Shown here one piece after another: positions 22,031 to 28,390 of a DNA stretch of 31,063 bases (position 1 is its first letter; every line of letters starts with the position of its first letter). Both the position numbers and the translations under genes were made by a program. Source of the stretch: a virus; IMG/VR virus record IMGVR_UViG_3300017613_004197, positions 1 to 31,063 of that record. The stretch is one strand, 5' to 3'. Under the pieces are notes generated by a model. It saw nothing but the letters and a program-made list of their open reading frames with translations. It was not told the DNA's origin and made no database searches.

Positions 22031-23212
22031 TCAACCACTTACCTCTGGATTTACCGCTGTCCGACCGCTGTCGGGGAACTGGAATACCCCCTGTGCCAAT
22101 CCATTTGTTGACATCTCACAATATTCCGGGTTCAGTTCTATCAATACCGCCTTCCGGTTCAACCTTTTCGCTACCCTGCCCGCTGTGCCACTCCCCCCGA
22201 ATGGATCTAAAATCGTGTCACCTATCCTTGAACCTGCCAGGATGCACGGCTCTATCAGCTTTTCGGGAAATACGGCAAAGTGGGCTTGAGGGTAGGGATG
22301 TGTCGGGATTGTCCAGACTGAGCGTTTGTTGCGGCCCTTGGAAGACCCCCATTCTCTTTGATTTGCTTCATTGTCAACCTGTCTATCGTTTCTTTCTGAG
22401 ACATTAAGCCGCCATCCAGGTGAATGTGGTTCCGTTTTTAATTCTTCCCTCACCGCATCGGCATCGTAATAATACTTAGCGGATTTTGTTAGCAGGAAAA
22501 TATACTCATGGGCCTTTGTCGGCCTGTCTGTCACGCTCTCCGGCATCGGGTTCGGTTTGTTCCAAATAATATCAGACCGTAACCACCACCCCTCCGCTTG
22601 CAGGGCCAGGGCTACCCTTGCAGGTATCATACAGAGGTCTTTGGGTTTGAGGCCATGTTGTACTGCGGACAATTCCATTCCCACTACTTTATTTAATGTT
22701 TCCCTGTCTTGTCCCGGCCACCCCATCGTGCTTTTACCTTCGCCATTATGGTTTGAACGTTTACCACCCCCTGCATAACTATCCCCCAAATTAAGCCAGC
22801 ACACGCCATCCTTTTTCAGCACCCTTCGCACTTCTCGGAAGATGTCTGCCATGTGCTTAATATATAACTCCGGTGTCGGTTCAAGACCCAGACTCCCCCG
22901 CCAGGCCCCGCAGAGCTGGCAGAATTGACCGGATGAACCGCCTTTGTGAGCATCCCTTGACGGTCTTTGCCATTCTTTTGGAACGCCGTCATTCCCACCG
23001 CCTTCATGTGATCTAATTATTTCATCCCCCCACACATGCACACATCCCTCTTGAGCATCCCAAATCTGAGGCTCAAGACCGTAATCTCTCAATCCCCAAT
23101 AAGGTGGGCTGGTCACGCAACATTGGATTGATTCAGGTTCCATGCCTCTGAGTACGTCAAGGACGTGGCCCTGTAAAATCATTACTCCGTCATGTGTGTA
23201 GTACGGCCTCAC
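22031..23212 (-). CDS. Beta-class DNA amino-methyltransferase (N4-cytosine/N6-adenine)
   Basis: 393 residues. Motif IV TSPPYWGLRDYG (residues 34-45) stands near the N-terminus and motif I DPFGGSGT (336-343) near the C-terminus, the order of beta-class enzymes; SPPY is common in N4-cytosine and also N6-adenine methylases. Between them are a FCQLCGAWRGSLGLEPT segment (about 95-115, possible zinc site) and WLNLGDSYAGGG. It transfers methyl from SAM to an exocyclic amino group and probably protects phage DNA from host restriction; no partner nuclease is seen. The GTG start overlaps the stop of the gene before it (GTGA), which supports this start. Confidence 0.85.
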   Translation of the reverse strand: MRPYYTHDGVMILQGHVLDVLRGMEPESIQCCVTSPPYWGLRDYGLEPQIWDAQEGCVHVWGDEIIRSHEGGGNDGVPKEWQRPSRDAHKGGSSGQFCQLCGAWRGSLGLEPTPELYIKHMADIFREVRRVLKKDGVCWLNLGDSYAGGGKRSNHNGEGKSTMGWPGQDRETLNKVVGMELSAVQHGLKPKDLCMIPARVALALQAEGWWLRSDIIWNKPNPMPESVTDRPTKAHEYIFLLTKSAKYYYDADAVREELKTEPHSPGWRLNVSERNDRQVDNEANQREWGSSKGRNKRSVWTIPTHPYPQAHFAVFPEKLIEPCILAGSRIGDTILDPFGGSGTAGRVAKRLNRKAVLIELNPEYCEMSTNGLAQGVFQFPDSGRTAVNPEVSG

Positions 23213-27144: not shown

Positions 27145-28026
27145 ATGACTCACATTGACCTCTTTACAGGCATAGGCGGGTTTTCTCTCGCCTGTCAATG
27201 GAACGGCATTCAAACTGAGGTAATGGTTGAAAAAGATGAAAAATGCAGAGACTTCCTTAGAAGAACCTATCCAGACATCCCTATTATTCCCGACATCCGA
27301 GAATTTGACGGAACGAAATGGCAAGGGCGATTTATCCTTACTGGGGGAGTCCCATGTCAACCTGCGAGTCGTGCCGGGAAGCAGAGAGGCAAGGAAGACG
27401 ACCGTTGGCTCTGGGGAGAAGCTCTGCGTGTTCTTGCCGAAGCAAAGCCCTGTTGGGCATTGTTTGAAAACCCTCCTGGGATCTATGACGTGGGGTTCGA
27501 TGGAATATTATCTGACCTGGAAAGCACAGGCTACGAACTCGGGATATGTGAGATTCCGGCTTGTGCCGTCAACTCCCCGCAGATCAGGCAGAGAGTGTGG
27601 ATCGTGGCAAACGCCATCGGTAGTAGACCAGACGGGCAGGCAGTATCAGTATGTGGGGAAAGACCGGAAGAAATTTCTATGTCTTCCTGGGCAAGTCAAA
27701 GCCACATGGCCGACACCGAGGGTATCTTGCCAGAACGGACCATCCCAAAAAGAAATTGCACAGAGGAACCCGAAACGCCGGCTGGAAACAGAATTGGTAA
27801 TTTCTGGCAAAACTCCCTCTGGCTCCCTTGCGCTGACGGAAAACTTCGTAGAACGCCTGATTTTATTGAGCAGTTGGTTGATGGGGTATCCGTTAACATA
27901 CTTGAAGAATTGGCAGAAGAAGGCTGGCCGCACAGGTCGGTCTTAGCGGCTTTGGGGAATAGTATAGTGCCACAGGTAGCGTTTCAAATAATTCAAGCGA
28001 TAGTGAGGGCAAACGATGAAAGCTAA
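27145..28026 (+). CDS. C5-cytosine DNA methyltransferase (Dcm-like)
   Basis: 293 residues with the ordered motifs: I IDLFTGIGGF (4-13), IV GVPCQPASRAG with catalytic Cys71, VI FENP (107-110), VIII QIRQRVWIVA (146-155) and X LGNSIVPQVA (270-279). The TRD between VIII and X is short, so the enzyme is smaller than most and its target cannot be read by eye. GGAGG with good spacing precedes the ATG. It probably hides phage DNA from host restriction, as does the second methylase at 22031. Another frame is open through most of the gene (see the 27236 entry). Its stop overlaps the HNH gene start. Confidence 0.9.
   Translation: MTHIDLFTGIGGFSLACQWNGIQTEVMVEKDEKCRDFLRRTYPDIPIIPDIREFDGTKWQGRFILTGGVPCQPASRAGKQRGKEDDRWLWGEALRVLAEAKPCWALFENPPGIYDVGFDGILSDLESTGYELGICEIPACAVNSPQIRQRVWIVANAIGSRPDGQAVSVCGERPEEISMSSWASQSHMADTEGILPERTIPKRNCTEEPETPAGNRIGNFWQNSLWLPCADGKLRRTPDFIEQLVDGVSVNILEELAEEGWPHRSVLAALGNSIVPQVAFQIIQAIVRANDES
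27236..27946 (+). CDS. Long ORF overprinted in the methyltransferase gene
   Basis: A 236-codon frame (+1 relative to the methylase) without a stop. It reads in part SHVNLRVVPGSREARKTTVG, YYLTWKAQATNSGYVRFRLV, WQTPSVV, TWPTPRVS and WLMGYPLTYL. I recall phage database proteins with this set of motifs (a PGS.EARK..TV opening, L.WK..T..G..LF.LVPS, WPTP repeats, WLMGFP end); they look like the same overprinted frame of other methylases. No good ribosome site precedes ATG 27236; translation is unproven. Conserved overlap could mean a real dual gene or only a shadow of conserved methylase codons. Confidence 0.4.
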   Translation: MKNAETSLEEPIQTSLLFPTSENLTERNGKGDLSLLGESHVNLRVVPGSREARKTTVGSGEKLCVFLPKQSPVGHCLKTLLGSMTWGSMEYYLTWKAQATNSGYVRFRLVPSTPRRSGRECGSWQTPSVVDQTGRQYQYVGKDRKKFLCLPGQVKATWPTPRVSCQNGPSQKEIAQRNPKRRLETELVISGKTPSGSLALTENFVERLILLSSWLMGYPLTYLKNWQKKAGRTGRS

Positions 28027-28390
28027 CGATCATGGCTATGTAAGAACTATGATAAATTATGAAAGAAAATATGAACATCAAAGGGTATGGGAAAAACACA
28101 ACGGCCCCATCCTTGAGGGTTTTGAAATTCATCATATCAATGGAGATTCAGCAGACAACCGAGTCGAAAACCTTGAGCTTTTAACACATAAAGAACACAT
28201 GAGAAGGCATATCACATGTTATCGCACAATAAATGGTGTTCGGCAAAAACAATGTACTGTCTGTAAAGAATGGAAACCGTTGAATGAGTTTTCACCGATG
28301 GGGCGTTGTCTTTCTGGGCCGTGCAAGCCATGTAAAGTAGAGTATAACCGAAATTTAAGATTGTCCCGCAAGTCGCATACGAAATCATAA
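28016..28390 (+). CDS. HNH endonuclease, free-standing
   Basis: 124 residues. The core EHQRVWEKHNGPILEGFEIH, HINGDSADNRVENLELLTHK and EHMRRH is the HNH_3-type layout (H..H, N..N, H), which makes a nick or double-strand cut with a single metal ion; many free-standing phage copies are homing enzymes. A C-terminal zinc-like part (QCTVCKEWKPLNEF, GPCKPCKVEY) adds CxxC pairs. The ATG overlaps the methylase end by 11 bases with GAGGG in front. Confidence 0.85.
   Translation: MKANDHGYVRTMINYERKYEHQRVWEKHNGPILEGFEIHHINGDSADNRVENLELLTHKEHMRRHITCYRTINGVRQKQCTVCKEWKPLNEFSPMGRCLSGPCKPCKVEYNRNLRLSRKSHTKS

Follow-up and report, generated by a model that had tools for sequence, protein, structure and literature searches.

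Long genes nested on the same strand are thought to be rare in prokaryotes. C5-cytosine methyltransferases (MTases) made of two polypeptides include M.EaeI and M.EcoHK31I, the latter requiring both subunits in vitro and having a small subunit of 176 amino acids, which Lee, Kam and Shaw (1995) are said to have found encoded in another frame inside the gene of the large subunit. The account of M.EcoHK31I in PMC3404938, citing Lee, Kam and Shaw 1995, assigns motifs I–VIII and X to the large subunit and motif IX to the smaller polypeptide. The locus described here, in a window of 31,063 nt (IMG/VR virus record IMGVR_UViG_3300017613_004197, positions 1 to 31,063), likewise has a large subunit with motifs I–VIII and X but without motif IX, which is on a second polypeptide, a likeness that holds at the level of conserved coding only, as translation has not been shown. 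M.EcoHK31I is an Escherichia coli restriction-modification enzyme, whereas the window has a phage gene with no recognised adjoining restriction enzyme, and the predicted target-recognition domain (TRD) of M.EcoHK31I was placed in the large subunit (PMC3404938), while conservation of the variable region in the window lies in the nested frame. M.AquI is also a split C5-MTase with motif IX off the catalytic chain, but its small subunit bears both motifs IX and X (PMC3404938), while the window keeps motif X in frame 0; the methylases of Mycobacterium phages Rebeuca and SchoolBus, with both motifs on the second chain, resemble M.AquI. The ShiLan type of mycobacteriophage methylase gene also contains an out-of-frame protein, in that case an HNH endonuclease encoded by a sporadically distributed mobile insertion (PMC11855218), whereas the nested frame of the window is fixed and covers the catalytic core itself. 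No report of family-wide nesting was found in the literature searched, with most subscription journals outside its scope.

The frame-0 methylase matches PF00145 (E = 8e-32, residues 1–159), phrog_363 (E = 2.6e-58) and, in a PDB search, M.HhaI (1.5e-37). The invariant residues of motifs I, IV (PCQ), VI (EN), VIII and X are all present (alignments A2 and A6), while motif IX is absent from this chain and found in the +1 frame instead. The original prediction, made from the sequence alone, had pointed to a 236-codon second frame within a phage C5-methyltransferase gene, and its coordinates are confirmed by the ORF from ATG 27236 to the stop at 27946, within a stop-to-stop open stretch of 240 codons (27224–27943). 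The start is ambiguous between this ATG, which has no strong Shine-Dalgarno sequence, and TTG 27227, with GAGGT at 27217–27221. The codon correspondences between the frames were also rightly drawn (WQTP over VANA, WPTP over MADTE and WLMGYP over LVDGVS), except that WLMGYP had been taken as derived from the methylase; the frame relation stands, but the direction is the reverse, with the +1 frame carrying the conserved motif and the V-D-G-V-S of the methylase being mostly its shadow. Between motifs VIII and X the conserved frame is +1, not frame 0 (Table 1). An HNH_3 endonuclease gene (28016–28390), whose product could be a homing enzyme or a partner, overlaps the 3' end of the methylase by 11 bases, and a second DNA methyltransferase (N6_N4_Mtase; PF01555, E = 9e-50) is encoded on the minus strand at 22031–23212.

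Table 1. Coordinates of the methylase locus features in the window and of related loci (prefix L) with other arrangements.
Feature	Position	Strand	Size, basis or remark
Frame-0 C5-cytosine methyltransferase, catalytic subunit (motifs I–VIII and X)	27145–28026	+	293 aa
Nested +1 ORF, putative motif-IX/specificity subunit	27227–27946	+	Permutation, profile scores, phrog_1008
Frame-0 motif IV PCQP, catalytic cysteine	27352–27363	+	Alignment A2
+1 PGSREARK block	27374–27397	+	Alignments
+1 LTWK	27512–27523	+	Alignment; predicted beta-hairpin, pLDDT ~93 in homologue L033
Frame-0 motif VIII RQRVWIVA	27586–27609	+	Alignment A2, PDB alignment
+1 xTP module 1 (WQTP)	27605–27616	+	Over frame-0 VANA
Frame-0 segment between motifs VIII and X, residues 165–248	27637–27888	+	Nearly all at pLDDT <50
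+1 xTP module 2 (WPTP)	27707–27718	+	Over frame-0 MADTE
+1 motif IX (WLMGYP), by sequence	27875–27892	+	Over frame-0 LVDGVS; profile comparison, motif census
Frame-0 motif X (GNSIVPQVA)	27955–27981	+	Alignment A2, profile comparison
Split methylases, Rebeuca and SchoolBus	L175 1177–2170, L176 1468–2419		
Second nested +1 ORF, phrog_16143	L262–L340 (viral contigs), L179 1652–2071, L180, L181		~110–140 aa

The identity of the +1 protein is indicated by its C-terminal end, with the consensus LNPxWVEWLMGYPxGWT, which on alignment is motif IX of the C5-MTases. In most loci the frame-0 GN of motif X follows this stretch after 14 to ~26 codons, and the counterpart of the stretch in M.HhaI is the HPRECARVMGYPDSYK segment before GNSVV, at which the PDB alignment puts the frame-0 ‘vadGvp’. 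When compared with the C-terminal parts of MTases (hhalign), the +1 alignment matched motif IX (E = 2e-7) and the frame-0 alignment matched motif X (E = 1.5e-5). The +1 family matched the single-frame viral MTase L202 (E = 4.5e-9), and the match to classical single-frame MTases and Rabbitrun only was in register and weak (probability 6%, E = 0.0064). The motif IX context of the window itself, NFVERLILLSSWLMGYP, is less typical than those of its relatives. L202 has the catalytic motifs, LLPTP repeats, FAEWMMGWPEGWVT and IGNGV in a single frame, two further loci (L209 and L210) resemble it, and the single-frame relatives read xPTP modules and motifs IX and X in the frame of the catalytic domain. 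In the split form of Rebeuca and SchoolBus, frame 0 ends after motif VIII and a separate overlapping +1 ORF, also annotated as ‘DNA methylase’, carries LPTP modules, motif IX and motif X. A census of motif patterns counted 188 nested loci (motif IX in +1, motif X in frame 0, both frames open), 17 split-tandem and 11 single-frame, with 35 unresolved and seven broken or cut. Both frames are conserved as proteins, +1 bearing motif IX and frame 0 motif X, and both single-frame and split relatives exist.

This partition of the motifs, together with the single-frame relatives, makes it very probable that the locus encodes an M.EcoHK31I-type two-polypeptide C5-MTase in which the nested product is the motif-IX/specificity subunit, in the absence of data on expression, interaction or methylation. 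Frame 0 would supply the catalytic subunit, with the AdoMet and cytosine pocket motifs I–VIII and motif X, while initiation by ribosomes at an internal site of the methylase gene would yield, from the +1 frame, a subunit of ~236 aa. This second subunit would consist of an N-terminal region, the xTP modules, which in single-frame relatives are located in the target-recognition region, and motif IX, which holds the small domain together, and would join the catalytic chain to form a working enzyme, as in M.EcoHK31I. It is inferred that the +1 frame of the window is translated, that the two chains physically assemble, that both are needed and that DNA specificity resides in the +1 subunit. In an AlphaFold2 model of the window methylase, the catalytic part has pLDDT >90 and residues 165–227 and 236–248 fall below 50, though the weak confidence of frame 0 between motifs VIII and X may stem partly from a poor alignment there. 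The model of a compact +1 homologue (L033; pLDDT 63 and pTM 0.28 overall) is locally confident at the LTWK hairpin and the motif IX helix, which fits, without proving, a protein that needs a partner to fold.

It is improbable, though this is the alternative that survives best, that the +1 frame encodes a real protein with an unrelated job (a regulator, counter-defence or similar) nested in the methylase by happenstance. Overprinted accessory proteins are common in phages, searches of Pfam and of PDB sequences gave no match to the +1 family, including no known homologue for its N-terminal ~100 residues, and a second +1 family (see below) exists in methylases with all motifs in frame 0. Such a protein would nevertheless not be expected to end in motif IX, at the right position and missing from frame 0, or to have its xPTP modules and motif IX read in the same frame as the catalytic domain in single-frame relatives. 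Further, a reverse sampling in which one genome per bacterial or archaeal species was scanned with the +1 alignment, without use of the methylase frame, yielded 80 bacterial loci with record titles covering at least 10 phyla (many from metagenome bins and probably prophages; scan E-values are relative to the candidate stretches), and no intact +1 copy without a methylase was found among these 80 loci. In 75 of the 80, no stop interrupts the methylase frame along the overlap, and its catalytic and motif X signatures are present; indels break both frames in L153, L162 and L171, and L096 and L155 are incomplete. A scan of viral contigs with only the +1 protein of the window as query gave no matches, and the viral scans that gave loci used frame-0 and family alignments as queries.

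The second +1 family occurs in Streptococcus and Lactococcus phage methylases, which retain motif IX in frame 0. All 37 dereplicated relatives of this type have a long +1 frame (permutation p < 0.01 in 37/37, against 1/37 for the +2 frame), whose product (phrog_16143) ends in SLSDILEExVxEKYFLS, and its tail also has inverted codon rates (0.391 at methylase position 1, 0.300 at position 3). A HaeII-linked plasmid methylase (L343 877–1803) has the same LSEILE..SKYFLSEE segment (PLSEILEADEDIESKYFLSEE) in frame 0, so that, in this other methylase group, a second piece of a canonical chain is found in +1. This extends the phenomenon and, since these MTases already possess motif IX in frame 0, also means that nested proteins of this kind must have some role besides providing that motif. 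A broader proposal can be put forward only tentatively and may well not hold: that phage C5-MTases generally use nested +1 partners of at least two types (motif IX and LSDILEExVxEKYFLS), and that in the window type specificity would lie in the hidden frame, with the variable-number xPTP modules as exchangeable recognition units and the catalytic frame passing through as a disordered chain.

Programmed frameshifting from frame 0 to +1 and back, to give one long methylase with a +1-encoded TRD and motif IX, is a highly unlikely substitute for two polypeptides. Two shifts could link the +1 motif IX to the frame-0 motif X, and in two of the copies with indels (L153 and L162) the sequence fuses frame 0 with +1, but two shifts would indeed be required, frame 0 is open through the whole overlap, and upstream the +1 frame, likewise open, is conserved and has an ATG and a Shine-Dalgarno sequence of its own.

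The coding status of the +1 frame was evaluated with 80 viral loci gathered by similarity to the methylase frame only (L082 left out of the frame-length figures) and with permutation of 87 methylase loci, which include those 80 and in which synonymous codons were shuffled within each methylase so that protein and codon usage were kept. Nearly all viral loci have an open +1 stretch of 135 to 386 codons (+2 median, 48), with a median of 240 codons versus 103 after permutation, and the +1 frame is open in essentially all of the 87 loci, a test of frame integrity that had been proposed at the outset; permutation gave p < 0.01 in 78 of the 87 with the +1 frame and in two with the +2 frame. In the window, a +1 run of at least 240 codons occurred in 1 of 1000 synonymous permutations (mean, 86), while its +2 frame is ordinary (57 versus 50 expected). 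The +1 product scores 164.1 bits against a profile built from other loci, compared to a mean of 54.9 and a maximum of 97.9 bits for 1000 permuted window genes, and the observed score was attained by none of 1000 permutations in each of six loci (the window and five others). Based on pairs at 55–90% identity, for which the counts are not independent, methylase position 3 differs at 0.524 before, 0.393 inside and 0.556 after the overlap, the synonymous-site depletion that the original prediction had named as a check. At the MGYP motif the methylase codon pattern is inverted (position 1, 0.354; position 3, 0.181), and past motif VIII, in the 152 loci that keep both frames open, the +1 codon changes fastest at its third position (0.512 versus 0.256 and 0.219) and the +1 protein has an identity of 0.68 versus 0.42 for the methylase. 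Of 66 loci, 26 have a Shine-Dalgarno match of at least five bases ahead of an in-frame +1 ATG (5.4 expected; p = 6e-12). Three plasmid restriction-modification MTases used as negative controls (Finegoldia, Lactobacillus iners and Acinetobacter) have no long +1 frame (p = 0.5–1.0); the Streptococcus/Lactococcus MTases were dropped as negative controls because they have a significant +1 frame of their own. The second frame is real and conserved as a protein, and of the two outcomes originally posed, a family that truly overlaps methylases is favoured by the depletion, the codon inversion, the frame integrity and the internal ribosome-binding sites. The least credible alternative is that +1 similarity merely follows from the conservation of methylase codons, with the annotated +1 proteins being artefactual, for although conserved motifs IV–VIII bias the +1 frame toward being open and permuted window genes still give ~55 bits, this explains only ~55 of the 164 bits in the window and not the failure of every permutation in six loci, the better conservation of the variable region in +1 than in frame 0, the excess of internal Shine-Dalgarno sites or the lack of a long +1 frame in bacterial restriction-modification MTases, and a pure shadow is ruled out by the permutation tests and the codon-position inversion.

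The phage database entries to which the original prediction pointed exist. The window +1 product matches phrog_1008 (E = 1.8e-15), as do all 68 of 68 +1 homologues (best, 8e-47), and tblastn with the +1 product finds +1 frames in Paenibacillus, Lacticaseibacillus, Klebsiella and Salmonella phages (E to 7e-21). Relatives are annotated as ‘g49 internal gene’ in Paenibacillus phage Diva and as ‘Mte8-like protein’ in Salmonella phage W5 and Escherichia phage K1ind2, the latter with both frames annotated. These belong to the same protein family as the window product, and phrog_1008 relatives are named ‘DNA methyltransferase’ or hypothetical without being recognised in the annotations as a nested subunit. 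The nested pair recurs in phages and in bacterial contigs of at least 10 phyla with measurable selection on both frames, and the usual annotation is one gene with at most a hypothetical protein, or a pseudogene. If the two-polypeptide reading is true, the second subunit has been missing from the cloning and assays of many phage cytosine methylases, and studies of overlap evolution would gain a large natural data set in which the protein logic is known for both frames. The closest E. coli loci found are prophage copies, and in E. coli Ec1117 (L184 2363–3532) a prophage cytosine methylase is annotated by RefSeq as two incomplete pseudogene pieces, which adjoin a frameshifted MT-A70 methylase. 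In Klebsiella phage KpV2811 (L003 1195–2553) the +1 frame is open for 453 codons, past the end of the methylase and into a downstream endonuclease VII gene in the same frame. Multiple copies were present in Lihuaxuella thermophila (three; L119–L121) and in Roseovarius sp. OX638333, where five copies have identical match statistics (L134, L135 and L139–L141).
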